Of a DNA stretch of 53,024 nt, positions 3,415 to 49,339 are shown piece by piece (position 1 is the stretch's first letter; each line of letters opens with the position of its first letter). Made by a program: the position numbers and the translations under genes. This DNA comes from a virus. The notes beneath the pieces are model-generated. The model was given only the letters and a program-made list of their open reading frames with translations. It was not told where the DNA came from and did not search any database. The stretch covers positions 1 through 53,024 of the IMG/VR virus record IMGVR_UViG_3300037961_002462. One strand, 5' to 3'.

Positions 3415-3799
3415 ATATAAACACAAGTATGTTCAAGTACGAGAAATGTACAAGAATGTTAGAGATAAATTAATAAAGAAAATAGATTACAGTACATTTT
3501 ACAAAATAGTAAAAAGATATTTTGAAATAGTATTGAGAGATTTAGTTGTAAAAGAAGATAAAATATATTTACCTAATAAAATGGGTTATGTATATTTAGA
3601 CAAAAGAAAACATAAAAGAGCTTTTCACGTGCGCGTGGACCAGAAAGCAAGTAAAGAGAAAGGGGAGTTAGTAAAATATAAGGTTCCTATACTAGACGAT
3701 TTTTATCATAAACTTGTATGGGTAAGACCTAAACAATATAAGAATTGTAAGATAATGCCACTAGGTATATATAAAAGAGTAATTAATAATTTAAAATAA
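3404..3799 (+). CDS. Small basic crAss-like structural-module protein
   Basis: This 131-aa strongly basic protein (many Lys, Tyr, Arg) has no membrane segment. A helical first half (STFYKIVKRYFEIVLRDLV) leads into a beta hairpin with the sequence IYLPNKMGYVYLDKRK. A small basic protein of this build, with an 'LP..-Gly-hydrophobic strand' signature, is a regular member of crAss-like tail modules next to the ring proteins; its role there is not established. It overlaps the upstream ring gene by 11 nt and precedes a beta-sandwich protein by 6 nt. Confidence 0.55.
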   Translation: MSSKYKHKYVQVREMYKNVRDKLIKKIDYSTFYKIVKRYFEIVLRDLVVKEDKIYLPNKMGYVYLDKRKHKRAFHVRVDQKASKEKGELVKYKVPILDDFYHKLVWVRPKQYKNCKIMPLGIYKRVINNLK

Positions 3800-3805
3800 A
3801 AAATT

Positions 3806-4267
3806 ATGGCAGATACTGATGTAAATGCAGGCACCCTAACAGTTACAATAACAGAAGCCTTATCAGTTGGACATGATGTTTCTGGTAATGATAGAGACTT
3901 TGCACAAACATGCACACATACATTTGCTTCAATAGCTAATGTTTCTAAAAGAGTATTAAAACTAGCAAACACAAATCTAACTGAAGTTGCAACATTTGGT
4001 TCTGCAGAATCTGTAGGAACATTTAAAAGAGCAGATGTAAAATATATAAGAGTTACTAATTTAGACGGAACAGACGCTTTACAAGTTGGATTAGATGATG
4101 AAGATTCAGACGCAGCTTACACATCACTAGCTCCAGCTACAAGTATTATGTATACAGGAACTACGGTAGAAGGTGGTAACGGAGGTTCGACATTAGACAA
4201 TGCTACTGCATTAAAAGTAAAAGGAGTGGCTGGTCATCAATTAGAAGTATTTATAGCGTCAGTATAA
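3806..4267 (+). CDS. Beta-sandwich virion protein (decoration/fibre type)
   Basis: This is a 153-aa acidic, Thr/Ala-rich protein without signal peptide. The central part, RVTNLDGTDALQVGL followed by an acidic stretch and SLAPATSIMYTG, resembles the core of the proteins at 37963 (VKNLDDTNFVKIYDG...LRPGEFL) and 38368 (IKNVDTDYPVAVKPDG...LKPGECF). A hydrophobic strand with 'NLD', a variable loop, and 'L-x-P-G/A' before another strand recur in all three. It is probably a small jelly-roll structural subunit, repeated in the genome. Confidence 0.55.
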   Translation: MADTDVNAGTLTVTITEALSVGHDVSGNDRDFAQTCTHTFASIANVSKRVLKLANTNLTEVATFGSAESVGTFKRADVKYIRVTNLDGTDALQVGLDDEDSDAAYTSLAPATSIMYTGTTVEGGNGGSTLDNATALKVKGVAGHQLEVFIASV

Positions 4268-5350: not shown

Positions 5351-8300
5351 ATGGCAGAACAAAGAGGAAATAAACCTGTATCACAACCACAAGCTTTTAC
5401 AGGTGGTATGGTATCGGACGCTAATCCAAGATTTCAACCAAAAGGTAGTTATAGAGACGCTTTAAATATTCGTATAATAAACGATGAAGGAAATACGTTT
5501 AGTGTAGAAAATATAGAGGGTAACAAAAAGTTTTTAGATTTAACAGATATTGATATATTCAAAGACCCTAAAACATTAGATAGTAATAATAATGAAGTAG
5601 GTCCAGGAACGCCAACAGGAGGTTTGTCAACATTTAACAGTCACGACGCTTCTATAGTTGGACACTATTCTTATAGTTCTAATGTAATTTTTATTGTACT
5701 GAAAACTGTAAGTAATTACGATTGGGATGCAGTAACAGAAACTATATTTTTAGATGTAAAATTTAATGCAAATTTAGAGGTAGAATCAGTTACAGACTTA
5801 TATGTTTGTTACGACCATCAAAATGTGAGTCGGTATCCTAGATTGAACATGAGATTAGACCACCCAGTAAGAGTGGAGGGTTTAATAGAAAACGAATGTA
5901 TATCTAGAATATATTGGACAGACAACATAAATCCTTTGCGTTCTCTAAATATAAATCAAAGAGGTAAAAATTTATTGTCACCAGATGTTTTAGATTTAAC
6001 ACCAATGCATAGTCCATCACAGCCTGTGATTGAAAGAACATTGTCTGGAAGTTTACCAATAGGTAAAATACAGTATTGTTATAAATATGTGTCTAGGAAT
6101 GGTGGAGAATCTGTAATGAGTCCATTCAGTAATTTATACCACACAACAAATAAGTCTGGTACATACTCTGGTTTCTACGGAGCGCCATCAGGTGACCCAG
6201 CGGTAGATGTCGGAGCTCAGGGTTTCGAAATAACTATATATGACTTAGACGATAGTTTTGATGCTATTGAACTATACGCTATATTACATGAACAAAATAA
6301 TGGTGGTATACGTGTCGCATTTGTTTCAGTACAAAACTATCAACCTAATTCTACTGAGGTTACATTTTCACATACTAATTGGAGTGGAGATTTAGAAAAC
6401 GGTATAGACGCTATATTAATAGAAAATAATACTTGGGATGTAACAAAAGATATAGCTATTAAGGATAATATTTTATTTGCTGGTAATTTAAGAACAAGAG
6501 ACAACTCCATATCTGAAAGAGAATGGAATGTTAAAGTTAGGAGGTATAATGTTGTAGAACCAAGTGGTTCAGGAAATGTAGGTAGAATAACAACAACAGA
6601 TTCAGATATAAAAGAATATCAAAAAACTAGTGGTGTAGTAACTGAAGTTACACCTTCATTAGGACAGACATGGGATGATGGTAGTCCGAAATGGAGAACA
6701 TACAAAGGTCAAGGTTCGATAAGTACAAACTCTAATATAAGAGATGATGGTCGTGTAGATGTGCAAAAAAAACAATCACACGAATTTAGATATTTAAGTG
6801 ATGGTATAACTTTGGGAGCTGAAAGTTATAATTATGATTCTAATGAACTTGGTGGATGTAGAATAACTTTTGGTATACGAGAAAGAGAGTTAGATAGTCA
6901 AAATAATACAAATAAAATTCCTTTTATAAATGCGGGGTCGTATCAAGATATACAAACAGACAATATAACCGATGGAGGTACAAATAATACAGATAATGTG
7001 TATCAATCAAGTATAAATCTTGGTGGCTCTAAAGACCCAGCTATAGGAGACAGAGTGGGATACAGAAGAGGAGAATTATATAGATTTGGTGTACAAATAT
7101 ATGATAAAAAGGGGAGGCCAGGAAACGTCTTATGGATAGGTGATATAGAAATGCCAGAACAATACGACCCATTAAGAATGTTAAGGACTAATGCAAGTAC
7201 GTATTCTCCAGACCTTTCTACCTCAGATTTACTAAGTAACAGTTTGTTAAAATCCTCGAAGTATGCACAGGACCACAGAACAAGTTTTATTTATGGTTCA
7301 GTAGTACCAGGTTGTGAGGTAGCGTGGCTTACTAAAGCAAACAATTATACAAAAAGATTTCAAACACCAGGCGCTCAATTAACATATGGAACAAATTATA
7401 ATGATATAAATATATCACCAAACACAATTACCAATAGTGGAGGTGGTGTAGATTTGCATGAAACATATGTTAATTTAAATGGTAGTTCTACACATGGAGA
7501 TATATCAGTGCCTACACCAAAAACTATAGCTGCCCAAGCGAGTGTTTCAAATAGTGCAAGGCCAAAAGAATTTACTTTTAGACAGTCGATGACTGGACAT
7601 GATGACACGCATTACGCGCTAGACCTGTACGTAAACTTTGAATTTAGAATACCAGAAGATGTAAGAGATAAAATTTCAGGATTTAGAGTTGTTAGAGCTG
7701 AGCGAACTAGTTCAGATAAAAGTATAATACAACAAGGAATTTTAAATCAAACAATTGCATATGGTCATACAAAATTAAGCCGTGGTTACGACCAAATGTC
7801 AAAAATAAAAAGTGAACATCATGCAGACGGAACGGACGCTATAGCAAATGATGATAATAGTGAACCTACAAAACATCTCAATTATGACAGTTATTTAAAT
7901 GGGTACATAGGTTTAGCTGAAAATTCTAATTATGCAAGACAGGAAGTAAATTATAGTGAGGGAACAAAACTTATAACAGGAGCTGACCAGGATAACAATG
8001 TATTTGGTAAAAGTGACTATGAAGAAGCCAGTGTACATGGAACGGGTGGCGCGATGGTTTACCATCGTGATTCAGACTATACTAAGTTTAATTCAGGAGA
8101 CACTAGAACACCAGGTACACAACATAAACAGAGAAGACATAGCGCTTACTTTGGTAGTTACGAAGTTATACCTAATACTGACTATCAGAAAGTTTTAAAT
8201 TTAGAAGCTGGTGTAGATGGCACTGGTAACACTACAACTTACCCTGAACATGTAAGTCAGGGAGGTATCTCTCTGCCTGTACAGGGAAGTATATTTACAT

Positions 8301-11077
8301 TAGACAGTCCAGATAGTGCATTTGGTATGAATCCATATAATTATAGGTCGGGAGACCAAATAAGAATAGACGCTGTAATGAAGTTGGTCTATGATAATAG
8401 AACAGACTCCAATCAACAAAATAATGCTGGAGGTACTTATCCTTTTGGATATAGAAATCACAGTGGTAATAATGTTCCAGAATCCTCACCAACGGACCCA
8501 TCTCCGCCACCATCTTCTTTTACGGGTCCAAACATTGATGTTGTACAGGATGACGCTTTAACTACAGTTAGTGGGTCAGCTGAACACGATGAGCATGATT
8601 TGAAAGTAACTGGTAGAACAAGTGCTATCAAGTATAGTGATATGAGAAGTGAAGATGGTCGAGAAAAAAACTTTGCTCTATACGGTAAGTATTATATCTA
8701 CGATACGTATTATGGAATAGGAATGTCGGTAGATGGAGGTAATATATATACCTCAGGTGCACATGCTTCTTCTGCAACAAGTAGAGGTGATACAGGATAT
8801 AGACCGTCACAACATCATGATAAGTACACTTTAGATATTTTAGCTGCAAAAGAGATTGGAGATGGAGAAATATTATCTAATTCTTATTTTAAATCGGGAG
8901 TTTCAGGATTCGATTTAGGAAGATTAAGCGGATTTTCAAACAATACTTTAGGATACTGTCAGTGGGGTAGAAAATTACAAAACGAGAATAGTCTATCTTT
9001 TCTTGACGGTTCGTATAAAACAGCTGGGTGGTCAGTAAAATTTGCTCACATATATGGAAATCTTACAACCCCACCTAGTGATGTAAAAAATGCGGACTAT
9101 ACATATGACACCATGTCTACGATACAGCAGGGGTTAAGGAGTATAGTTTTACAAATAGATGGTGACGGAGGACACACAGGTAACAAAAGGGGATTATTAA
9201 ATCCCAGAAATTTATCAGCAGTTTTAGAAAATAGAAATTGGCATTCGAGAGGTACAGATGGTCAAAATTCAACTGCTACTATAGAAAAACCAACACTTTG
9301 GCAATCTGCTTTAGGAAATCCAAATGGCAATGCGAACGAACTGAAAGGAGAATATGGAAATAGAAGTTATATACCATTTAAATTTTTATGTAGTATTGTA
9401 CGTAATGTAACGCCATATGGAGGAGATTCAAAATCAGCAATAGAAAACACTAGGTTTATACCTTGTGGTAATTTTCATCCAATAACAAAAGATAGTTCTG
9501 GAAGTTCAGATGAAGCTCATTTATCTTCTGTTTATGGTGGAGACACGTATATAACATTTTATACCCATCAAAAAACAGCTTGTGTATATGAAGGCAATTC
9601 TGCTGCAAGATGGCAAATATTTCCTGTAGAATCTGAAACAAACACAGACATGAGAATGGGTAGACACCTATCAGCTGGTGATGTAAATACAGGAAATGAA
9701 AGTACATCAGATGGTCAATTCGTTACTAATGAGTGGCAATATAATGATGTATACTCACAACAAAACAACCTTAAATCAGCTATCATGGTAAATGAAGATG
9801 AGATATGTAAGTCTTTGGATTTAAGATACGAAATAGCATATAGTAATACAAAAATATCAGGAGAAAAAGAAGATTCTTTTAGAGTATTTGAATGGGCGAA
9901 TTTTCACGATATGGAAAGTTCATATGGTGAGATAACTAGACTAGTGAACTTTAGAAACGAGTTGTATGTATTACAAGAATCGTCTATATCTAAACTTTTA
10001 GTAAATCCAATATCTATGATAAAAGATGATTTAGGTACTACCATTAATGTAGGAACAGGGGATACTATTGAAAATCATTTATATATATCTACTAAGTTTG
10101 GTACAAGACACATGGACAGTGTTGTAGCCTCGCAAAACAATTTGTATTTTGTAGACAATAATTATGGCAAACTTTTAGCTTTTAATGGTGAGTCCTTAAA
10201 TATATTGTCAGACACTTTAGGACAAAGAGATTTTTTTAAGAAAACTATAACTGACAATAATTTAGAGTCATCAAGCATACCAGGATACGGAGCGTTAGCT
10301 GACACAGATAAATTTGGAAGAAACTTTTTCTGTGATAATCATTTGAAATACAATGGTATAACCAGCGCTTTTGATTATAAAAATAATGAACTTATAATAA
10401 CATTACATAGTTCTACTTTAGAAAAAGATAATACAAATGCAAGATATACTTCTAGAAAAACATCATATGATAATTTAGGAAACCAACATACTTTTAATAC
10501 AAAATCTAAAACAATAGTTTTTAGTGAAGCTTTAAACGCTTTTTCATCTTATTATAGTCACACCCCTAGAAAGTGGTATGAAATTGGAGGATATTTAGTA
10601 ACAGCAAAAGCAAATGTTAGTTTAGTTGATAATGCTGCAAACGCACTGGGTGTTTATGATAAAGACTTTTTATCTTTATGGAAATGGGACGACCACGTTA
10701 GTGACTATAAGACATTGTTCTTTGAGGATACAGACACGACAAAAGTTGAAGAAAGTTATATATTAAAAACTATTGCAGAAGCTCCACAAATAAGTAAAGT
10801 GTTTGATAATTGTAGAATTATAATGATTGGTACAAATCAAACTATAGATGACAGTACAATAGATTTCAATACAGAAATAACTGCTCAACAACTTATATTA
10901 GGTACAGATACTTCAGTAAAATATAGAGAGGGGGTGTTAAGATTTCCGCTTAGACAAGCACAAAGAAATTTACCAAGAATGAGAGGAACATATGTAAATA
11001 TAAAATACAGTACTAAAAGTACCGAAAAATTTAATATCTTTGCAATACTTGCAAAGTATAGACAATCATTTAATTAA
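5351..11077 (+). CDS. Tail stabilization/muzzle-like protein (crAss-like)
   Basis: This giant 1908-aa tail protein has an N-terminus, GGMVSDANPRFQPKGSYRDA followed by LNIRIINDEGN, that matches the start I associate with the crAss-like 'stabilization protein' (related in concept to P22 gp10, and to the muzzle at the tail tip). The rest is beta-rich with many Tyr, Asn, Ser, Asp and Gly, and no signal peptide or membrane segment. The part around residues 1520-1660 (YGEITRLVNFRNELYVLQES, then FVDNNYGKLLAFNGE) reads like repeated beta-propeller/hub strands. It probably closes the tail tip and contacts the cell surface. It is longer than the usual 700-1500 aa, indicating inserted domains in the middle (residues ~850-1400). 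Confidence 0.7.
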   Translation: MAEQRGNKPVSQPQAFTGGMVSDANPRFQPKGSYRDALNIRIINDEGNTFSVENIEGNKKFLDLTDIDIFKDPKTLDSNNNEVGPGTPTGGLSTFNSHDASIVGHYSYSSNVIFIVLKTVSNYDWDAVTETIFLDVKFNANLEVESVTDLYVCYDHQNVSRYPRLNMRLDHPVRVEGLIENECISRIYWTDNINPLRSLNINQRGKNLLSPDVLDLTPMHSPSQPVIERTLSGSLPIGKIQYCYKYVSRNGGESVMSPFSNLYHTTNKSGTYSGFYGAPSGDPAVDVGAQGFEITIYDLDDSFDAIELYAILHEQNNGGIRVAFVSVQNYQPNSTEVTFSHTNWSGDLENGIDAILIENNTWDVTKDIAIKDNILFAGNLRTRDNSISEREWNVKVRRYNVVEPSGSGNVGRITTTDSDIKEYQKTSGVVTEVTPSLGQTWDDGSPKWRTYKGQGSISTNSNIRDDGRVDVQKKQSHEFRYLSDGITLGAESYNYDSNELGGCRITFGIRERELDSQNNTNKIPFINAGSYQDIQTDNITDGGTNNTDNVYQSSINLGGSKDPAIGDRVGYRRGELYRFGVQIYDKKGRPGNVLWIGDIEMPEQYDPLRMLRTNASTYSPDLSTSDLLSNSLLKSSKYAQDHRTSFIYGSVVPGCEVAWLTKANNYTKRFQTPGAQLTYGTNYNDINISPNTITNSGGGVDLHETYVNLNGSSTHGDISVPTPKTIAAQASVSNSARPKEFTFRQSMTGHDDTHYALDLYVNFEFRIPEDVRDKISGFRVVRAERTSSDKSIIQQGILNQTIAYGHTKLSRGYDQMSKIKSEHHADGTDAIANDDNSEPTKHLNYDSYLNGYIGLAENSNYARQEVNYSEGTKLITGADQDNNVFGKSDYEEASVHGTGGAMVYHRDSDYTKFNSGDTRTPGTQHKQRRHSAYFGSYEVIPNTDYQKVLNLEAGVDGTGNTTTYPEHVSQGGISLPVQGSIFTLDSPDSAFGMNPYNYRSGDQIRIDAVMKLVYDNRTDSNQQNNAGGTYPFGYRNHSGNNVPESSPTDPSPPPSSFTGPNIDVVQDDALTTVSGSAEHDEHDLKVTGRTSAIKYSDMRSEDGREKNFALYGKYYIYDTYYGIGMSVDGGNIYTSGAHASSATSRGDTGYRPSQHHDKYTLDILAAKEIGDGEILSNSYFKSGVSGFDLGRLSGFSNNTLGYCQWGRKLQNENSLSFLDGSYKTAGWSVKFAHIYGNLTTPPSDVKNADYTYDTMSTIQQGLRSIVLQIDGDGGHTGNKRGLLNPRNLSAVLENRNWHSRGTDGQNSTATIEKPTLWQSALGNPNGNANELKGEYGNRSYIPFKFLCSIVRNVTPYGGDSKSAIENTRFIPCGNFHPITKDSSGSSDEAHLSSVYGGDTYITFYTHQKTACVYEGNSAARWQIFPVESETNTDMRMGRHLSAGDVNTGNESTSDGQFVTNEWQYNDVYSQQNNLKSAIMVNEDEICKSLDLRYEIAYSNTKISGEKEDSFRVFEWANFHDMESSYGEITRLVNFRNELYVLQESSISKLLVNPISMIKDDLGTTINVGTGDTIENHLYISTKFGTRHMDSVVASQNNLYFVDNNYGKLLAFNGESLNILSDTLGQRDFFKKTITDNNLESSSIPGYGALADTDKFGRNFFCDNHLKYNGITSAFDYKNNELIITLHSSTLEKDNTNARYTSRKTSYDNLGNQHTFNTKSKTIVFSEALNAFSSYYSHTPRKWYEIGGYLVTAKANVSLVDNAANALGVYDKDFLSLWKWDDHVSDYKTLFFEDTDTTKVEESYILKTIAEAPQISKVFDNCRIIMIGTNQTIDDSTIDFNTEITAQQLILGTDTSVKYREGVLRFPLRQAQRNLPRMRGTYVNIKYSTKSTEKFNIFAILAKYRQSFN

Positions 11078-18106: not shown

Positions 18107-21100
18107 ATGGCAGAAAAAACACCATTGGCACAAGATGAAAATGTATCTGTACCAGGTATAGATATAGTAGAATATGATAATAATTATCAAAATGCATCAC
18201 AACTTGCAGAAGGATTATTAAATCCTGCTCCACAACAAAATAGACAGATGGACGCTTATATGAGGTCACAAGCTGTTACTGATGTGCAACAACAACAGTT
18301 TGAAGGATTGTCTACTAGTCCTATACAACCAGGACAAGAGTCAGGAATGTTTGGTGTAGACCCAGATGCAGTAATAGGAACATTTGCGCAAGATACGACA
18401 AGGTCTATAAAAGCTGGTTGGGGTGATTTAGTTGCTGGTACTGGAGATACAATTGATGTGTTAAACGCATGGTTTAATCCTAATGACCCAGACCCATCAA
18501 CAAGTGTTGGAAATTGGATGAGAGGTGTTGGAGAAAAATATCAAAACGAAAACTTTTTAGTTATATCAGAAGACCTACAAGATTTAACTTGGGACGATAT
18601 GTTTAAAGCAGAATTTTGGTCATCAAAAGTAGCAAGATTAGTTCCATATGCAGCGTCTTTTCTAATACCATATGCTGGAGGAGCTGCATTAGCTACAAGA
18701 TTTACAAGTAAATTATTAATTGGAGCGGCTAAACGAGGTATTATAGGAAACGCTAGTAGAGTAATAGGGACTGCGTCAAAGTCCAAAAAAGCAAAATATC
18801 TATTTGGAAAAAACAGAATAGGTGGTAGTGGTTTAGCTGGGGTATCTTTAGTAGATAAAGGAATAAAAGGTAAACAAGCATTAGAATTAACAAGAGGTGT
18901 AAAAAGTTTATCACAAGCTGTTGGAGGGGGTTTTGCGGCTAACATGATGGAAGGAGTATATTTAGGTGGAGAAGCTTACAATCAGGGAATGAAAGACGGT
19001 TTAACTATGGAACAAGCTTCTGCCGCTGCTAGTGATGTAGTGTATGATAACGCACAATACATGTGGGTAGATATGGCTCAATATGGTTTATTGTTTGGTG
19101 GTTTAGGGAAGACATTTAGATTAAGTAGATTAGCAAATCTTACACCCGACCCAAAAAGGTTTGGTTTTAGTGTTAAAGGTTTAATTAATCCTTTAGTTCA
19201 AAGAGGACTAATAAATTTACCAACGGTAGGAACGTATGCTGGTATCGAAGGTTTTTCAGAGGGTGTACAAGAAACATACCAAGAGTGGATTAAATACAAA
19301 GCTATTCATAAACAACAAGGTAAGGATTATCAATCTTATACTAATTGGTTAAAAACTGCGGATGGTAAATTTACAAAAGAAGCGAGGGATGTATTTTGGA
19401 CTTCTGTTGGTTTAGGTGGAGCTATGGGTAGTGTTAGGGGATATGTCGATGGAGCAGCAGAAAGACAATCAACTATTCAAGAAAGATTAGAAAAAACGGC
19501 ATTAGGGATAAACTTACAAGAAGAGGGTAAGTATAGTGACGAAGCGCAAATGATGTTTCAACAATTTGCAGACGAAGTTATTGCTGAACACATATATAAC
19601 TATAATGGAGATGGTACACCGTTAAAACAAGTAATTAGTAAACAAGTAGAAGAGGGAAAGATTACACCAGAAGCGGGAGAGGCTTTGAACAACACTATAG
19701 ACCAAATGGTTACTACTTATGATAAACATTCATTAAGTACCACACTTACAGAGTCAGGACAAGAACAGGCATTTTATACTGAAGTCAGATTAGAAAGAAA
19801 TAAACAACAAAGACAAGACACAAAAAATATATTCAACGAAGAAAGAAAAAGAGTAAAACAAAATGTAAAAGACCCAGCAAAACAAAAAGAACTTCTTGAC
19901 GAAATAACAATGGAAGAGAATGCTGTAATAAATATATTAGACCAAGAAAAGAAAGAATTAGAAAATAGAATAGAAAGTTTTTATTACCTAAAAGAAGAGG
20001 TAATGACTAAAGATGGTAAGGTAGATAAGAGGTACAAAAAAAGAATGACAGCTGATGAGTTTGAACAGTTTACAACACAGGGTCAAGAAAGATTAACAGC
20101 ATCACAAGCGCAAGAAATGGGCATGTCTGTTGAACAATATAAAGAATATAATAAAAGAAAAAAAGAACAGGGTACTTTTAGAAATGTTGTAGAAAGTATT
20201 AAAGATAGATTTAAAAAAGGTAGAGATATAGTATCTCAAAAAATTAAAGATTTTAGAGAACCAGAAATAAAACCTACAGAATCAAAAACTACAGATACAG
20301 ACATAACACCGCAACAAGAAGCTAAAAAAAAAGCGGTAATTGAACTACCTGAACCACCTAAGTCTGAAAAAGTTAGACGAAAAATACCAATAAAAGATAA
20401 AGTAAAAAAGTTAGCTAAAGCTATAGTTGACAAAGGAGGTGAGTTAATTGTTAAAGCTTCTAGTATAATACCTACACCAGGTGGTACGAGTTACACAATA
20501 ACAGACAGTAAAGGAAAAACTATAAAGTTTTTTAATAGAACTGGTAAGGTTGGTAATCAATCAATAGAAAACTTTTTATCTAAATATATCAAAGATAAAT
20601 CTACAGATGTAAAAATAAAAATCATTTTACCACAAGATGGTGAAGCTAATGTTGTTAAGATTGATGGACAGTTGTTTTTTCAATATAATAATGACTTGTA
20701 TCAATATAAAATGGAAGCTAGTATAGATGGACAGACTATTGGTACAATTGAATATAGAGATTATGATATTAAAGACGAACAAATAACAAGAGCAAAGAAA
20801 ACGAAGTCAGAAAGACAGGTTAAAAAAACTAAAGATGTTATAAAAAAATATTTTGATAAAATAAAATCTAAAGTAACACCATCTAAAGATAAATCAAAAG
20901 ATGATAATTTATTTAAAAAATATGATGGAACTGTACCTAGAAGAAATTTTGAAGTATATACAAATTCAGGATTAGCAGAATATGTTTTACTTAATAAAAT
21001 ATTAGAAAGAAATCAAATACCAGCTGACAGAGCCTATATAGTTAGTTCAGAACTATTAGATAGTTTTGGTAATGAAGCGGTATCTTTAGCTATAGGTAAT

Positions 21101-24100
21101 AGTATTTTCATACAAGAGGGTGGTACCGTAGGGACAGATATAATACACGAAGGCGGACATATATATTACCGTATGTTTGCGGGTACACCACTTATTAAAA
21201 GAATTAACGAACTTTTAATAGGAACAGATATATACGACCTTACTACTATAGAATATCCAGAACTAACACTTATAGATGTCGGAGGGACTGTTATGACTCT
21301 AGGACAGTATGTAGAAATACAAAAAGGTGTGTTAAATCAAAGAAATGATTTAGATGGTGATATAAAAAGTATTATTAAAAGTATAACAGAAGTGGAAGGT
21401 GTAGACGACACCAAAACAAATAACTTTTACATATCTTTATTAACACAATTAACTACAAAACGTAGGGGTGGAGCAATAGCTAAACGATTAACAGACTTAG
21501 AACAAACACATTTATTAGAAGAGTCTTTTGTAAGAACATTAGAAGCTAACTCTTTTGGTAGATTAGACGCTATTATTAAAGATAGTTCTACACAAAAGAA
21601 AATAGAAGAAGAGTTAATTAAGTATTATAAAGAAGCGAAACAACTTACTACAGACGAAGAAGCAAGACAATTTTTAGATTTAGTGGATGATGTGGTACCA
21701 ACACTAAGTTTAGACGCGGCTATGAAACACATATTGTTAAAGTTTGGGAAAAAAGGTGGTATAAGAAATTCTGGATATGCAGGAATAAATAGAGCAAAGA
21801 AAAAAAACATAACTAAAGCAACTGAATTTGGTCTAATACATACTTATATAAACTATGAATTAGGAAAAGATTTAACAGACCAAGAAATTATTGACAATGT
21901 AATAAAACGTATAGAAAAATCTGGTTTAGTAAATTTAAAAAGTTTAGATAAAAAATTAAAAAAAGAAGTAACTAGTTATATTGAATCAGTGTTGTATACA
22001 ACAAAACCTGAATACAAACAATTATTACTTACAAGTAATGATTTATTAATAGACGCTATTATACGAGAAAAAGGTTTTAAAGAAGGTAGTGTACAAGAAC
22101 AACAGGCAAAAGAAAAATATGAAGAAGAGTCGTTAAATGAAGACGACCCAAGTGATGTAGATAAGTATAATGAAGAAAAGAAACAGATAAACATGCCTAA
22201 GACAATGACTAATTTTTTTAAGGGCATTGCAGAAATATATAATGTTAAGTCAGAGTCACCATTCGAAAGAAAAAAATTAATGTATCAATTGCGTACTATT
22301 TCTAGAAATACTAGAAAAAACCCATACGAATTTATTTCTGCGATAAGAAACAGTAAGTTTACGGAAATACAACAGATGTTAGATATATTAGATAACAAAG
22401 TATTTAAAAATCAAAATTTAACAGACGCAAAACTATTACAAATCAATAACATATTTAGAAGTATGGTAATTGAAAGACTAACAGGTAATATGTTGTTAAT
22501 ACAAAACGAAACTGATTACAAATGGATAAACAAACCATTAATGAGTAGAACTACAGAAAAAACTGTAGTAAAGAGAATGTTGGATTCTTGGAAAAATTTA
22601 TCAGAAACTAAAAAAGAACAAAAAAGGATTGCATTAGAAAATGTCTATAATACAGTTAGTCAAAATAATTTTAGTGATAAAGCAAAAGCCGAAGGTACAG
22701 TAGCTATATTAGAAATACTATTTAAAGATACTGATGGTTATGAAAGACTTGATACAGAAGCGATGATGAATGAGTTAATAGTTTATAATAACAAACCTAT
22801 GTATTTGATGGATGTATTTTTTGATACTAAAAGTACACAATATGGTCCTAAGCTTACTAACAAAGAATGGATGTTGTACAATAACAAATCTAAAAGATGG
22901 TCATATAAGGTAGGTGATAGAAAAGCTTTCGAATATTATAACAATAATTTATCATCATATAAAACTGTGTTAGAAGAATTAATGATAGTTTCTAGGCCTT
23001 ATAACTACTTATCAGTGGTAGACAATGTTACAGGTGACGCAATGAGTATATTTAACAATAACAATGCGTTACACAATCAAGCTTACGACAGTGTAGAAAA
23101 AATAATAAATGTAGATAAGAGAAAGAAAAGTATATTTAATCCAAAGAACAATATATTCGCGCAAATAATACAAGATAAATTTGAAATGAATATATTGTTG
23201 AACAAACAAAATGGAGAGATATTAGACAATCCATTTGATATTAGTATACAAACAGGTATGTATAGATACTATCCAGGACAAGAACTAATAGAAAGATGGG
23301 ATGAAGGAGCAAGAAATATGACTAATATTAATCCAGCTGAAATACAATCAATGGATTTCTTTAGTTTTTTAACAGCTATTAAAAATGCAGAAAAAGGTGA
23401 CATAGTATTTTACGACCAAAGTATTGGTACGTTTTCAGACAAAAGTAGAAGGTATTATGTTAAATCTATAGCAGCTATAGATAAAAATACAAGACAAATG
23501 ATTTTGTCTAGATTGTATAATAATCCAGCAAAAAATGATACATATATAAAAGGTGATAGAGTTTTACCTTTTGATATTATACGTAATAAAAATGGTGAAT
23601 ATCAAATAGAAAACTTAACAGAATTAGTTGAAAAATTCAAATCTGATATAAGAAAAAATAGTGAACTATACGAAGGACATGAATTATTCAGGAAAGCTAC
23701 ACAAGAAACGATTGAGAACTACCTAATTAGTTATATAGGTAATAGATTTATGGCTCAACAACTGTTAGCATATGACCATAAACAAGCTAAGAACGAAGTA
23801 GATTACGTAAAAAGATTGGCGGGTACTATTGCGTCACATATGACATATGACCACAATACTTCTTTTGAACCTATAATTGTTAAAGATTATTATGTAGATG
23901 ATAACGGTAATTTATATACAGAAGATGAAATACCAGAAGGTGTAGATGTGTCAATTGAAAATGATGCTGCTGGTTATATATTACCAGAACAAGCTAAAAT
24001 AATTACAGATAAATATGCTGGTGTTAGAGATGTTGGTGGTGTTTATAAGTTTGTTTATAACTATAGACAAGAAGATGGAAGTACAGTGTATTTAAAGTTC

Positions 24101-27100
24101 GCTGTACAGGTATTAACACCAGAGATGGAACAAACAAGTGAAGTGCATAGAAATATAGCAACTCTACTTAGAGAAAGAAACATGAGTATAGCTGATGCAA
24201 CTATACCAAATTTAGAGTTTATAGATATGTTTGCACATGGAAATTTGGTAATAGCTGCTTCAGAATCATCTGCAAAACTTTGGTTTGATGGTGTGAGTGG
24301 TAAAAAGGGTGGGCAGTATGTGTATGATGTACGTAATTTGGATGACACGAATTTACAAAACATATTAAGCAAACAAGATGAAATATTTATGGAGGGAGAT
24401 ATTAACGATGCTAATAGAGTTTTTGTAGGTTTAGATGGTAAGGGATTAGGTATACAGTTAGAATTAGACAAACAAACAGACGAAAGATATTATCCGTCAC
24501 AATTATTTTATCATTTGAATAACAACATGTATAGTCCTGCAAATGTTGAAATACTTAACAGAATGTTACAGTTAAGAAAAAATGTGATGGAAAAAAGTAA
24601 TCAAGAAAGAAACTTTGATGAAGGAATGATAAGTGAGTTAGGAGCTACAACAGAACAAATATTTAAAGAGATGGAAAGTTTTAAAAGTTCTGTAGACCCA
24701 GGTATATATGGTCAGTTGTTATCGTCTTTGTTTGGAGATATAGATGGTAGATACCCAGCTATGAATGACATATATAATGCAATAGCTAGAGGTAGAGTAC
24801 AAAAGAAAGGGACTAAAATGTATACAAAAGGTAGTATAGCTTATCAATCATCTTCTTTAGGTATGGGTCTAGAATCGTTTGTTACACGTAATATAGATGG
24901 TAGAGATGTAGTAGTTTCGGAAGCGTTTGTTCCTGGTTATTTACAACAACAAGGTGTTAAGGTAGGAGATTTGTTTTTAGGTACTAGAATACCATCACAT
25001 GGTAAGGTAAGTACATCTGTATTTGTAGTAAAAGGTTTTCATCAACAACTAGAAGGTACACCTACATCTAAGATAACTATACCAGCTAAAGTGTCTAAAT
25101 ATTGGGGAGCTGACTTAGATGGAGATTCTATACACATGAATTTTAAATACAATGAAAACGAAATAAAAAGTGCAGATGATTGGAGAAATGATAGTAATGA
25201 GTTTTTTGATTTGTATGTTGATTTAGTTAGTAAACAAGATGTAAGAAAAGAAATAACAGCTGATATAGAATTTGAAAACGAAGTTAATAACATACTAGGA
25301 GAAGACAGAAAAAGACCTGAATCACAACTTACACCAACAGGTGATAGTCAAACTTTTAAAGAAAATGTACCAACAAAAAAGTTAGTTGGTATTGTAGCTG
25401 CATTACAAAGAACATTAAATGTATTTTCTAATTCTGGAGTAGAGTTAGGTTTTGAAATAGATATAGAGGGTAGAAAGGTAGATAGGTTTTTTGATGATGT
25501 AGCATTAGAAGATGGTAAGGGTAACTGGTTTGGTCTAGCACAGATTCTTAACATAGTATTAGACAACGCAAAACATCAGTATGCAGAAGGTTTGGGTATT
25601 AATTTTAATTCAGCTGCGGGTTTTGTAATGTTGAGAAGACTGGGATATTCTTTACAACAAGTAAAAGATATATATACATCTGATGTAGCTAAATCATATT
25701 TCGATTGGTTAGACACTACAAATGGTAAAAAGTTTACTTCGTCTAAAAATACGATACAACAGTTAATTGGTAAAACAAAACGACCAGGTAAAAAATCTAG
25801 TGATTTTATAAAGTTTTTAGGTAGAAACCTTACCAAAGAAGAAAATAAAATATTAACTATAATATATAATTTACAAGAGTTTAATAAAACTATAGCACAA
25901 CCTATAGGTCAAATGTTTACTGTACATCAAGGTATAATTAAAAATCCTTTAGAGTTAAGAGCTACTTTAAGAAAAATAGAATTAATAAAAAATAACAGAA
26001 TAAAACCAAGTATTAAAAATTACAAAGAAAATAAACTTGGTAATTTATTTACAAATCCTATATTAACACATGCTCAAGAGTTGATGGAGTTAGTTTTAAC
26101 AAGAGCTAGTTCTACTGATATAAGATACACACCTTATATGCAATCTATTACAGAAGAAGTGTATACAGACGCAAATAGTAAATTTTTCTATTATTCAGAC
26201 CAACAAAAAAACAAAATAATAAATCATATAATAAAAGAAAAACTCGCAGAGTATATTGATGTTATAAACTCTAGTAGAAGATTGTCTAGTTTAGTTGAAG
26301 ACTTTAAGACAATGAAAGAAGAGAATCCTAATAATAAATTTTTACAGTCTTTAAAAGTTGTAACTAATAGTAAGGGTAGGGAAATTATAGTTACAAACAA
26401 ACAAATACTTAATGAATTTCTTACAGAATCAGAAATACAAGAAATCAAAAAAGATTTCAGTCAGTTGACTGCAGAACAAAAAGACACAATGATAAATATT
26501 GAATATAGATTTTTTGATTTTGGTTTTAAAGAAGAATCTATAATACCTTTGTTTGATAATGTAGAAATACAACTTTTAAATAAAGATATACAAAAGGCTA
26601 TAAATTATATGCAAGAAGCAATACCAACGGGTGTTAAGGGTATTGATATTATTGAACAAGCAGAATCTGAAATTCAACAAGAGTTAAAAGAAATAAAAAA
26701 TATAGAAGATAGACTTATAGAAGAATCAACAAAAGAAAGAGAATCAGGAGATACTTTTGATGGTAAAATGAAATTAACAACTTCAGAAGAACAGTCTATT
26801 ATATCTGGCAACAAAAAAACAATAGCGCATGGTTTCAGTTATAATGACACTGGTGGTAATATAGTTAAGTTAATTACACCTGGTAGTACTTTGGTTGAAA
26901 TATCACCTGCTATTAAAAGAAATAGTTTGGATGAGATTACAGATAAAGATGCATTTGCTAGGTCTGAAGGATATGACAACTTTCAAGATATGAAAGAAAA
27001 TGGTACGAAGTATCATAAAGATTTTATAGAAGGTAAAAAACCAATATACATACACAAGATTGTTGGTAAACCCTCTACAGCTACAGAAAACAGAAGAGCT

Positions 27101-29650
27101 AAAAAAGCTTTTGACAGAAATGTTACTGAGAGTGTAGAATATATGGAAGAAACAAATCTTTTGTCATTTGATGAGTGGTTACAAGATAAAGGTATAACTA
27201 TAAAGTCCTTAACAAAAGGTTCTATTATATATAAAAGACTACAACAAAGATATAAACAATATGTTATAGACTACAATTTGTCAGAAGATTTTATCGTAGA
27301 AAAACTTACTGATGCAAAAATTAAAAAGATGTCTATGGATGATTTATTTAATGCGGTTAAAAAGTTAAATAAGTTAGATGGTAGTGCAAGTAATAGAGCA
27401 AAACATTTAGTTAGAAAAGAAATAGCACAAAGAGCATTTAGAGAACAGTCAGACTTTTTACAAGAACAAGCAGATATACAATCATTTAAATTTGTTAAAC
27501 CAGCAAAATCAGATGATATAACTTGGTTTAGAAAGTGGTTAGGTTCTAATAATATGACATCACGTAGACCAGAAATACAATACATGATTAATGAAATAGA
27601 AAAAAATTATTATAACTATTTACAAAGAAATAGAAAGTATGTAGCTGAAATAAATAAAGTACATAATGAGTTAATTGATAGTAAATTAGCTGGTATATCT
27701 ACAATAGAAAAAATAAAAGGAAGGTTAAACATGGCTCAAAGATATGAGTTATTGTATGGTAACATAACTAATAGAGATAAAAATGGTAGAATTGTATTGT
27801 TGTCTAAAGAACAAATGAAAAGTAAACGTAGTTCTATAACACAACAAGAATACAACTACTGGAAAATGTATCAAGATATAAACAAAAGATTTTCTGATAT
27901 TATAAAACAAGAAAAAACTGATTTTATTAAAAATATAAAAATGGGTGATTTAGAAATGTTTGGTAGAGAAGGTTTGTTTGGTTTGTATGATATGAGAATG
28001 GGTAAAAATATGTACGTAGAAAATGTAAAACTATATTTTGATGTTGGTGGTACACAAGTTTTAATGCCACTCAGTACTATAAGAACATATTTAAAGAGTA
28101 GTGGAGCTACAGCAAAAGAAAGAATAAAGAATGTAGAAACATTAGAAAAACTTAAAAGAAAAGCAACTAGATTAAAAAAACAAGGTAAACATGAGGACGG
28201 TAGTGATATTACACTTACTGATGCAGAAATTGACGCACTTATAGATGATGGTGATGCAATTATGAGAATGGCTAATGGATACGAAGGTGAATTATCTGAA
28301 GCAGATAAAGCATTGATACAAGAAATAAAAAGAAGACAACTTACAGAATTTGAACATATGTCGATGGATTTAAATGGAGCTCTGTTAGAATATGTTAGAG
28401 GTATGTTATTTAAATATGGAGATGTAACTAGAGATAGAAATGGAAAACCAAACAACTTAGATGAAAATCCTTTTGTAGGTATGTCTAACATGTCTGTATT
28501 AGTAGACGCTGTAATAGAATTTAATAAAGAAAATGGAAATAAAAACGCGGCAGAATATTTAACTAGGGTTTGGAAAGATTCATTTTTAGAAAAGAAAAAA
28601 CCTAGATTAAATACAGTAGAAAAAATAATAGACTTTTTAGTAAGACTTACATCTTTAAATGTATTAGGTTTTAATCCATTAGTAGCAGTGGGTAATGTAT
28701 TAGCTGGTAAATATCAGGAGTATAGAAAACGTGGTGGTAAAACATTTAAATTAGGTGAAAAAAGGTATTGGAAAGATTGGGGATACTCACAAAAGTTATT
28801 AGAAAAATACAGAATTATAGAATATAGTTTTAGTGACTTTGTACATCTTGACAACAAAAAAGGAGTGTTTGGTAAGATAGAAAGAGCTTCGTATGTATTT
28901 ATGGATAAAACGGAAAACTATATACAAGGTGCTGCCTTTCTTAGTATGTTAACTGAAGAAGAATATATATCAGGTGAAATATCACAAAGAAGAGTTGCAC
29001 AAATAAATTCTAGAATAGCTACTTTACATGGTGAAGGTTATACAGCTCTAGATGGTAGGTTATTAGGTACTTACGCTTTAGGTAGGGCGGCTTTACAATT
29101 TAAAAAATGGTTTGTTACTTTAATAGGTGACAGATTCCAACAACACGATATAGACAGGTTTGGAGAAGTGCAAATAGGTAGTTATACTGCAACTGGTAAT
29201 TATATAAAAGATTTGTATAGACAGTTTAGAGAAGGTGAAATTACCTTAGAACAAATGCAAGACGCGTATAATAAAATGAGTGTAGAACAACAAAGAGAAA
29301 TGGGTGCCTATATAAGAGGTGTGGCGTTAGCAGGAATTGTAGCGACACTTATATTAGTTATGGATGAAGAAGATGAAACTGATGGTACAGTATTAAGAAA
29401 TCTTAAAAAACTTAATAAAGATATTAATGTAATATCAGATTACAATAGACATATTAATTATACTTTTATACCTTCTAGTGTAGGTTTAATAGAAAGTATT
29501 GGTAAGATTTTAGATGGTATGTCAGAAGGTAATACAGAAAAATGGGAAACAGAATTAAAGTATGATGTTGCTCCATTTGGTAAGACTAGAAGAAAGTTAG
29601 AAAGTTCATTAGAAAGTACTTCTGAAAGAGAAAGCGAAATAATACGATAA
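18107..29650 (+). CDS. Giant cargo protein with RNA-polymerase-like catalytic motif (probable virion RNAP)
   Basis: This is a 3847-aa polyprotein-like chain. Residues ~1-430: helical, with Gly/Ala-rich hydrophobic stretches (LVPYAASFLIPYAGGAALAT near 185). Residues ~440-930: charged coiled coil and linker. H1014-E-G-G-H1018 fits a zincin, with Glu1138/1139 (LLEESFV) as possible third ligand. Residues ~2100-2500: D2336-L-D-G-D2340 in WGADLDGDSIH, preceded by RIPSHGKVS; this matches the metal-binding double-psi barrel loop of RNA polymerases (NADFDGD in beta', DFDxD in phi14:2-type phage enzymes). Residues ~2885-2990: PUA/ASCH-like (TLVEISPAI, 'EITDKDAFARSEGYDNF'). One membrane-like helix lies at ~3739-3753. 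It is likely packaged, ejected, and transcribes early genes. The gene follows its neighbour by 1 nt. Confidence 0.7.
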   Translation: MAEKTPLAQDENVSVPGIDIVEYDNNYQNASQLAEGLLNPAPQQNRQMDAYMRSQAVTDVQQQQFEGLSTSPIQPGQESGMFGVDPDAVIGTFAQDTTRSIKAGWGDLVAGTGDTIDVLNAWFNPNDPDPSTSVGNWMRGVGEKYQNENFLVISEDLQDLTWDDMFKAEFWSSKVARLVPYAASFLIPYAGGAALATRFTSKLLIGAAKRGIIGNASRVIGTASKSKKAKYLFGKNRIGGSGLAGVSLVDKGIKGKQALELTRGVKSLSQAVGGGFAANMMEGVYLGGEAYNQGMKDGLTMEQASAAASDVVYDNAQYMWVDMAQYGLLFGGLGKTFRLSRLANLTPDPKRFGFSVKGLINPLVQRGLINLPTVGTYAGIEGFSEGVQETYQEWIKYKAIHKQQGKDYQSYTNWLKTADGKFTKEARDVFWTSVGLGGAMGSVRGYVDGAAERQSTIQERLEKTALGINLQEEGKYSDEAQMMFQQFADEVIAEHIYNYNGDGTPLKQVISKQVEEGKITPEAGEALNNTIDQMVTTYDKHSLSTTLTESGQEQAFYTEVRLERNKQQRQDTKNIFNEERKRVKQNVKDPAKQKELLDEITMEENAVINILDQEKKELENRIESFYYLKEEVMTKDGKVDKRYKKRMTADEFEQFTTQGQERLTASQAQEMGMSVEQYKEYNKRKKEQGTFRNVVESIKDRFKKGRDIVSQKIKDFREPEIKPTESKTTDTDITPQQEAKKKAVIELPEPPKSEKVRRKIPIKDKVKKLAKAIVDKGGELIVKASSIIPTPGGTSYTITDSKGKTIKFFNRTGKVGNQSIENFLSKYIKDKSTDVKIKIILPQDGEANVVKIDGQLFFQYNNDLYQYKMEASIDGQTIGTIEYRDYDIKDEQITRAKKTKSERQVKKTKDVIKKYFDKIKSKVTPSKDKSKDDNLFKKYDGTVPRRNFEVYTNSGLAEYVLLNKILERNQIPADRAYIVSSELLDSFGNEAVSLAIGNSIFIQEGGTVGTDIIHEGGHIYYRMFAGTPLIKRINELLIGTDIYDLTTIEYPELTLIDVGGTVMTLGQYVEIQKGVLNQRNDLDGDIKSIIKSITEVEGVDDTKTNNFYISLLTQLTTKRRGGAIAKRLTDLEQTHLLEESFVRTLEANSFGRLDAIIKDSSTQKKIEEELIKYYKEAKQLTTDEEARQFLDLVDDVVPTLSLDAAMKHILLKFGKKGGIRNSGYAGINRAKKKNITKATEFGLIHTYINYELGKDLTDQEIIDNVIKRIEKSGLVNLKSLDKKLKKEVTSYIESVLYTTKPEYKQLLLTSNDLLIDAIIREKGFKEGSVQEQQAKEKYEEESLNEDDPSDVDKYNEEKKQINMPKTMTNFFKGIAEIYNVKSESPFERKKLMYQLRTISRNTRKNPYEFISAIRNSKFTEIQQMLDILDNKVFKNQNLTDAKLLQINNIFRSMVIERLTGNMLLIQNETDYKWINKPLMSRTTEKTVVKRMLDSWKNLSETKKEQKRIALENVYNTVSQNNFSDKAKAEGTVAILEILFKDTDGYERLDTEAMMNELIVYNNKPMYLMDVFFDTKSTQYGPKLTNKEWMLYNNKSKRWSYKVGDRKAFEYYNNNLSSYKTVLEELMIVSRPYNYLSVVDNVTGDAMSIFNNNNALHNQAYDSVEKIINVDKRKKSIFNPKNNIFAQIIQDKFEMNILLNKQNGEILDNPFDISIQTGMYRYYPGQELIERWDEGARNMTNINPAEIQSMDFFSFLTAIKNAEKGDIVFYDQSIGTFSDKSRRYYVKSIAAIDKNTRQMILSRLYNNPAKNDTYIKGDRVLPFDIIRNKNGEYQIENLTELVEKFKSDIRKNSELYEGHELFRKATQETIENYLISYIGNRFMAQQLLAYDHKQAKNEVDYVKRLAGTIASHMTYDHNTSFEPIIVKDYYVDDNGNLYTEDEIPEGVDVSIENDAAGYILPEQAKIITDKYAGVRDVGGVYKFVYNYRQEDGSTVYLKFAVQVLTPEMEQTSEVHRNIATLLRERNMSIADATIPNLEFIDMFAHGNLVIAASESSAKLWFDGVSGKKGGQYVYDVRNLDDTNLQNILSKQDEIFMEGDINDANRVFVGLDGKGLGIQLELDKQTDERYYPSQLFYHLNNNMYSPANVEILNRMLQLRKNVMEKSNQERNFDEGMISELGATTEQIFKEMESFKSSVDPGIYGQLLSSLFGDIDGRYPAMNDIYNAIARGRVQKKGTKMYTKGSIAYQSSSLGMGLESFVTRNIDGRDVVVSEAFVPGYLQQQGVKVGDLFLGTRIPSHGKVSTSVFVVKGFHQQLEGTPTSKITIPAKVSKYWGADLDGDSIHMNFKYNENEIKSADDWRNDSNEFFDLYVDLVSKQDVRKEITADIEFENEVNNILGEDRKRPESQLTPTGDSQTFKENVPTKKLVGIVAALQRTLNVFSNSGVELGFEIDIEGRKVDRFFDDVALEDGKGNWFGLAQILNIVLDNAKHQYAEGLGINFNSAAGFVMLRRLGYSLQQVKDIYTSDVAKSYFDWLDTTNGKKFTSSKNTIQQLIGKTKRPGKKSSDFIKFLGRNLTKEENKILTIIYNLQEFNKTIAQPIGQMFTVHQGIIKNPLELRATLRKIELIKNNRIKPSIKNYKENKLGNLFTNPILTHAQELMELVLTRASSTDIRYTPYMQSITEEVYTDANSKFFYYSDQQKNKIINHIIKEKLAEYIDVINSSRRLSSLVEDFKTMKEENPNNKFLQSLKVVTNSKGREIIVTNKQILNEFLTESEIQEIKKDFSQLTAEQKDTMINIEYRFFDFGFKEESIIPLFDNVEIQLLNKDIQKAINYMQEAIPTGVKGIDIIEQAESEIQQELKEIKNIEDRLIEESTKERESGDTFDGKMKLTTSEEQSIISGNKKTIAHGFSYNDTGGNIVKLITPGSTLVEISPAIKRNSLDEITDKDAFARSEGYDNFQDMKENGTKYHKDFIEGKKPIYIHKIVGKPSTATENRRAKKAFDRNVTESVEYMEETNLLSFDEWLQDKGITIKSLTKGSIIYKRLQQRYKQYVIDYNLSEDFIVEKLTDAKIKKMSMDDLFNAVKKLNKLDGSASNRAKHLVRKEIAQRAFREQSDFLQEQADIQSFKFVKPAKSDDITWFRKWLGSNNMTSRRPEIQYMINEIEKNYYNYLQRNRKYVAEINKVHNELIDSKLAGISTIEKIKGRLNMAQRYELLYGNITNRDKNGRIVLLSKEQMKSKRSSITQQEYNYWKMYQDINKRFSDIIKQEKTDFIKNIKMGDLEMFGREGLFGLYDMRMGKNMYVENVKLYFDVGGTQVLMPLSTIRTYLKSSGATAKERIKNVETLEKLKRKATRLKKQGKHEDGSDITLTDAEIDALIDDGDAIMRMANGYEGELSEADKALIQEIKRRQLTEFEHMSMDLNGALLEYVRGMLFKYGDVTRDRNGKPNNLDENPFVGMSNMSVLVDAVIEFNKENGNKNAAEYLTRVWKDSFLEKKKPRLNTVEKIIDFLVRLTSLNVLGFNPLVAVGNVLAGKYQEYRKRGGKTFKLGEKRYWKDWGYSQKLLEKYRIIEYSFSDFVHLDNKKGVFGKIERASYVFMDKTENYIQGAAFLSMLTEEEYISGEISQRRVAQINSRIATLHGEGYTALDGRLLGTYALGRAALQFKKWFVTLIGDRFQQHDIDRFGEVQIGSYTATGNYIKDLYRQFREGEITLEQMQDAYNKMSVEQQREMGAYIRGVALAGIVATLILVMDEEDETDGTVLRNLKKLNKDINVISDYNRHINYTFIPSSVGLIESIGKILDGMSEGNTEKWETELKYDVAPFGKTRRKLESSLESTSERESEIIR

Positions 29651-49163: not shown

Positions 49164-49339
49164 AAGAGAGTATAGACTTGCCGTTGATTCACACTTATCC
49201 TAAACTGCTCACCATATTTGCAGTAAAGTACTAACTAGTCTTCCTTCAATAAGTGCATCCGTTTTATCAGGACCTTCTATAGTAGCGTCTTCTAACTACA
49301 CGTAGTGGGGCGGTACTTATGTTCGTACTATACTCTCTT
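49164..49339 (-). ncRNA. Structured RNA element closed by a 12-bp stem (unknown class)
   Basis: A perfect 12-bp terminal stem (49164-49175 with 49328-49339) encloses 152 nt that code for no protein and are more GC-rich than the flanks. Inside are a 7-bp stem (49192-49198 with 49249-49255), containing a 5-bp hairpin (49204-49208 with 49220-49224), plus a CTAC/GTAG hairpin at 49296-49305. It lies between two small leftward genes. I cannot match it to a tRNA, tmRNA, hammerhead, riboswitch or group I intron. Strand is inferred from the flanking genes; inverted repeats cannot settle it. Confidence 0.55.

Follow-up and report, generated by a model that had tools for sequence, protein, structure and literature searches.

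A putative virion RNA polymerase that joins counterparts of three crAss-like phage proteins in a single chain

The virion RNA polymerase (vRNAP) of crAss-like phages usually consists of two or three very large proteins; in the Crassvirales families examined here, these proteins are encoded by two or three genes and amount to a total of ~6000 amino acids. The nearest solved fold to the protein described below is that of gp66 of the Cellulophaga phage phi14:2 (PDB 6VR4). According to two reviews (PMC7886860, PMC10136315), the phi14:2 polymerase transcribes early genes, and the record annotation lists g065–g067 as detected in virions by MS/MS. Likewise, virions of the Bacteroides phage crAss001 contain gp47, gp49 and gp50 (PMC10172136). 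crAss-like vRNAPs of 4000–4900 amino acids, some of them fused to a zincin, are already on record, and gp96 of the Thermus phage P23-45 is a tape-measure-fused vRNAP, a giant virion chain with a DFDGD motif and a metallopeptidase (PMC10770324).

Here, we describe a giant gene in a stretch of viral DNA of 53,024 bases (IMG/VR record IMGVR_UViG_3300037961_002462), referred to as the window in the following. An original prediction, made from the sequence alone, had described the gene product as a virion-type protein that combines an RNA polymerase motif and a protease-like region in one polypeptide. Very probably, the product of this gene is the RNA polymerase that a small and deeply divergent crAss-like phage injects, with what are elsewhere two or three proteins joined in one chain.

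A clade of giant chains with three crAss-like parts

The open reading frame at 18107–29650 (plus strand) starts with ATG, has no internal stop and encodes 3847 amino acids. We annotate it as a putative single-chain virion RNA polymerase gene with a gp47-like N-terminal part, a HExGH region, a two-barrel core and a gp49-like C-terminal part. While a first scan of viral contigs with the window protein alone returned no relative, alignment-guided scans of IMG/VR recovered a clade composed of the window, 12 further full-length relatives and several partial ones, with 41–65% identity in the core. All 13 full-length members are single chains of 3698–4100 residues, with the HExGH motif at residues ~1012–1306 and a GADLDGD motif at residues ~2284–2632. 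In a tree of the second double-psi barrel (DPBB-A), the clade occupies one long branch with a support of 100/100, apart from the other crAss-like vRNAPs. A scan of genome contigs found no relative and hence no link to a host.

Contig L013 (86–13204) encodes a giant crAss-like RNA polymerase chain in one open reading frame of 4372 residues, and in L014 (745–13204) what is apparently the same chain is split into two overlapping frames (2512 and 1653 residues), either by a frameshift or by a sequencing error. Because of their TerL similarity and their giant proteins of 3.7–3.9 thousand residues, the elemo and Manatee Spring phages (~60 kb) seemed suitable as cultured or complete stand-ins for our system. 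We rejected them as the same system, as these giants have no RNA polymerase motif and show no match to the clade profiles. In the cultured Flavobacterium phage elemoA (L049, 17563–28647; 3694 residues) and the Manatee Spring phage (L048, 741–12320; 3859 residues), the giant has a HExxH motif; these TerL-related phages of ~60 kb thus encode giants of similar size with different cargo.

Comparisons at the profile level assign each third of the window protein to the family of one crAss001 protein. Residues 1–760 match the gp47 family (hhalign E 5.4e-6, probability 86; reversed control 0.39), with the segment of residues ~174–460 (18626–19486, plus strand) related to the virion proteins crAss001 gp47 and phi14:2 gp67. 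Residues 1700–2760 match the gp50/gp66 family (E 2e-12, probability 97.7; reversed control 0.11), and residues 3320–3847 the gp49/gp65 family (E 2.1e-14, probability 98.3). Within the latter, residues ~3480–3845 (28544–29641, plus strand) are homologous to the C-terminal end of crAss001 gp49 and phi14:2 gp65, fused here to the rest of the chain; blastp also detects this similarity (E 1e-6). This map is one-to-one: matches to the wrong family or to reversed profiles are not significant, and the sole other clear match links the C-terminal part to an Intestiviridae chain annotated as a fused RNA polymerase subunit (E 7e-5). The original prediction, right in its core, had missed the fused gp49-type C-terminus.

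An insertion of ~85 residues (near residues 2900–2985; 26804–27061, plus strand) is located after the polymerase and before the gp49-like part. It is carried by three of the 13 members (the window, L017 and L019) and lacking in the other ten. A PUA/ASCH-like block had been proposed for the chain, but this finds no support: for the insertion, Pfam returned no PUA/ASCH family even at E ≤ 1 and no meaningful match.

The HEGGH motif at residues 1014–1018 (21146–21160, plus strand) lies exactly where it had been noted. Its residues H1014, E1015, G1017 and H1018 are invariant in all 13 full-length members, and so are E1138 and E1139, which belong to a downstream H-x-(L/I)-E-E-(S/T/A)-F motif. We regard E1139 (21521–21523, plus strand) as the candidate third metal ligand; in a predicted structure of residues 930–1260, it is placed on a helix (model residues 205–219) behind the HExxH helix. 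This model is weak (pLDDT 64); a fold search with it gave no significant match and no zincin among the matches listed. The similarity to known crAss-like HExxH regions is likewise weak, with a best hhalign E of 3e-3 to the gp49 family. The assignment as a putative zincin is made because the HExxH motif is accompanied by the invariant downstream glutamates, and a zincin activity of the region would follow from these sequence features.

Such an activity raises the question of whether the chain is a polyprotein, cut by its embedded zincin, either ahead of ejection or afterwards, into gp47-, gp50- and gp49-like products. The working subunits would then be those of other crAss-like phages. The invariance of HExGH and of the downstream glutamate is consistent with such a role, and zincins have been suggested to process giant polypeptides of phages (PMC5512222). 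However, phages with separate genes for the parts retain the HExxH region as well (crAss001 gp47), so that such cutting would not be its sole purpose; self-cleavage is possible but not needed to explain the motif. As we have also found no evidence of cleavage sites, and as the weak model did not recover a zincin fold, we consider a polyprotein unlikely.

The predicted two-barrel polymerase core

Searches with the window protein by itself gave no RNA polymerase match in Pfam, in PHROGs or, with phmmer, in the PDB, and neither blastn nor tblastn at 1e-5 found anything in phage DNA. The polymerase signal emerged solely via relatives and profiles. In a relaxed tblastn search of 2.3 Gb of phage DNA, residues 2202–2405 matched crAss-like genes annotated as 'putative RNA polymerase' (E 2e-3), and direct blastp comparison with crAss-like vRNAPs yielded an E of 3e-7, at ~24% sequence identity.

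The motif on which the original prediction was built, DLDGD at residues 2336–2340 (25112–25126, plus strand), is found there, and the RIPS motif expected about 45 residues before it occupies residues 2294–2297 (24986–24997, plus strand), 42 residues upstream. To judge these motifs, we used 2000 shuffles of the window protein, in which D[FL]DGD has an expectation of 0.0065 per chain, HExxH one of 0.025, and R[IV]P followed 30–60 residues later by D[FL]DxD does not occur at all. A bare DxDxD proves nothing by itself, because about one is expected per chain by chance. A second DLDGD at residues 1081–1085 (21347–21361, plus strand) was rejected as an active site: it is specific to the window, is kept by no relative in a comparison of the 13 full-length members, and is ascribed to chance, whereas DLDGD at 2336 is invariant throughout the clade.

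RIP/RVP and DLDGD align with RIP/RVP and DFDID/DFDVD of phi14:2 gp66, crAss001 gp50 and the Suoliviridae, and two lysines of the putative first barrel (DPBB-B), K1997 (24095–24097, plus strand) and K2057 (24275–24277, plus strand), align with K1027 and K1065 of phi14:2. A conserved lysine from the upstream barrel had been proposed as a check of the polymerase reading, as had conservation of the aspartates. In an alignment of 17 sequences, which includes crAss001 and two other crAss-like chains and spans 18–67% identity to the window, D2336, D2338, D2340, R2294, P2296 and K2057 are all invariant; K1997 is conserved to at least 90% in this alignment and is invariant within the clade. The residue following the last aspartate is a serine here and a lysine in most crAss-like vRNAPs (DFDxDK); a serine is also found at this place in Intestiviridae (DFDVDS). 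Further downstream, an NW-GLAQ-LDNAK-RRLG segment (residues 2473–2513; 25523–25645, plus strand) has D2486, L2509, R2511 and G2513 invariant in the 17 sequences. It is helical and lies downstream of DPBB-A in a model of moderate quality, and it may be part of the downstream catalytic core, possibly the bridge-helix/trigger-loop region.

The polymerase core ranks among the best conserved regions of the chain, and so does the C-terminal part. Between the window and L017, the overall difference is 0.20 at codon position 2 and 0.43 at position 3, and position 2 diverges less than position 3 in every part of the chain, as expected under purifying selection.

We modelled residues 1700–2760 with AlphaFold2, using the 17-sequence alignment with its crAss-like members. 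The model has a mean pLDDT of 63 and a pTM of 0.46, with a pLDDT below 50 in the catalytic loop (model residues 637–640). A Foldseek search of the PDB returned 6VR4 with an E of 1.2e-14, the sole match below 1e-3, and QDE-1 next; the TM-scores are low overall (0.39 globally against 6VR4). In VIA-align, QDE-1 scored a Z of 12.3 and 6VR4 a Z of 11.8 over 593 residues. The two structures with which a comparison had been suggested, phi14:2 gp66 and QDE-1, are thus the top matches of this moderate model. Based on Foldseek, VIA-align and hhalign, we delimit the putative core by the QDE-1 alignment, which covers residues 1776–2513 (23432–25645, plus strand); the range against 6VR4 is partly different. 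The designed double-psi barrel 7du7 aligns with residues 2239–2347 (Z 9.4), placing DLDGD in the predicted metal-binding loop of DPBB-A, and large subunits of RNA polymerases align with the same region. In BFVD, most named matches of the core model are crAss-like phage proteins, including that of phi14:2. The model also matches proteins of Virus NIOZ-UU157 (Foldseek; BFVD A0A7S9XE14). This taxon label is the commonest among viruses in DNA from marine sediment cores (PMC13037465), and the virus is possibly a marine crAss-like relative.

Sequence, profile, predicted fold and conservation all agree with the reading of residues 2336–2340 as a polymerase metal loop. On these grounds, DLDGD and the upstream RIP constitute a real two-barrel RNA polymerase active-site motif, for which catalysis is predicted. 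The great divergence of the chain and the moderate model might also fit a degenerate polymerase fold that now serves as a structural protein for ejection or as a pilot protein, as might the HExxH giants of 3694 and 3859 residues in the TerL-related phages of ~60 kb, which are devoid of the polymerase motif. Yet the invariance of the three aspartates, the R-P pair and K2057 in 17 sequences, in a core that ranks among the best conserved parts of the chain, makes a dead polymerase very unlikely. Finally, that an unrelated giant protein of a phage has a DxDxD by chance, for which the expectation of about one per chain and the decoy at 1081 might be cited, is scarcely conceivable, as profile, fold and conservation all single out position 2336.

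Genome and gene neighbourhood

A 38.7-kb IMG/VR contig (L015/L016) overlaps both ends of the window with 99.8% identity, over 18.9 kb and 7.1 kb, which implies a circle. The genome therefore appears to be ~65.8 kb in size; the contig of one relative (L010) has 65,897 bases, and the named crAss-like genomes compared have 90–103 kb. The overlapping contig adds crAss-like genes for TerL, portal and major capsid protein, the first two of which were confirmed by tblastn to crAss-like phages. In the window itself, the gene at 5351–11077 (plus strand) encodes a homologue of the crAss-like muzzle or stabilization protein (PHROG 28748, E 1e-54), with tblastn matches to crAss-like stabilization proteins that include phi14:2 g071. 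The giant gene had been described as sitting behind a muzzle-like gene; this is loosely right: the muzzle homologue does lie upstream, with three genes in between. The giant gene stands behind a crAss-like structural block, and the order of tail, muzzle, cargo and RNA polymerase genes is as in phi14:2.

ARAGORN detected no tRNA, a sigma-70 scan found fewer promoter-like sites than in shuffles, and no shared early-promoter motif stood out by eye upstream of the minus-strand genes. On the minus strand, an intergenic stretch of 172 nt (49166–49337) is closed by a perfect 10-bp inverted repeat (GAGAGTATAG...CTATACTCTC). Its only other occurrence is in this phage's own overlapping contig; it has no Rfam match and folds no better than shuffles (z -0.58).

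Proposed mode of action and comparison with known systems

For catalysis, packaging, ejection and the role of the HExxH region, we infer the following from the described relatives. As in phi14:2 and crAss001, the chain would be packaged together with the DNA. It would be ejected ahead of or with the DNA, probably N-terminus first, so that the gp47-like part leads, with the polymerase and then the gp49-like part behind it on one continuous thread. After refolding in the host, the first barrel with K1997/K2057 and the second barrel with D2336/D2338/D2340 would transcribe the early genes, probably those of the minus-strand replication block at 40.7–53 kb, for which host polymerase would not be needed. 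A single polypeptide would hold the parts at a stoichiometry of 1:1:1 and bring them in together. We lean towards the view that the whole injected transcription machine of this ~65 kb lineage has been merged into one ~430 kDa chain, either uncut or matured by the embedded zincin. If true, no simpler vRNAP system would be known from crAss-like phages.

The clade is also informative about the usual, divided systems. As a natural fusion that is shorter than these (3700–4100 versus ~6000 residues), it hints at the parts that cannot be dispensed with and at their order: gp47-type, HExxH, polymerase, gp49-type. Furthermore, it would constrain models of ejection, as the polymerase must cross the tail channel mid-thread. 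The two-barrel RNA polymerases of phages gain a deep branch of ~15 sequences whose metal loop has the form DLDGD.

To place this layout, we compared 17 named crAss-like records by annotation, size, motifs and position. In phi14:2, gp66 resembles the window protein as a two-barrel single chain with the RIP...DxDxD layout and the lysine pair, but it has 2180 residues and DFDID in place of DLDGD, and gp65 and gp67 are separate genes. The separate genes of crAss001 encode 2341, 2412 and 1349 residues (gp47, gp50 and gp49). Three genes are the rule in most Steigviridae (crAss001, phi14:2, DAC15), while cr108_1 splits the parts otherwise. Suoliviridae fuse gp47 and gp50; their giant polymerases, cr118_1 gp14 (4946 residues) and cr55_1 gp070 (4551 residues), have a HExxH ~1450 residues before DFDxD and share the gene order of the window, but the gp49-type protein has its own gene, and cr118_1 gp14 also carries a terminal helicase/exonuclease-like domain. 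The window chain had been called longer, which is true in relation to phi14:2 gp66 but not to these Suoliviridae chains. In Intestiviridae, judging by the annotation of Carjivirus communis (p-crAssphage), gp47 with the zincin is separate and gp50 is fused to gp49: gp44 is annotated as an RNA polymerase catalytic subunit fused to another polymerase subunit, and gp45 as a polymerase-associated protein fused to a zincin protease, which makes two genes where the window has one. P23-45 gp96, lastly, is the tape-measure protein of a long-tailed phage, has its polymerase at the N-terminus and belongs to another two-barrel lineage. A gene fusing all three parts occurs in the window clade alone among the records compared; what is new, as judged from sequence, is thus a clade with putative counterparts of gp47, gp50 and gp49 in one chain of 3700–4100 residues.
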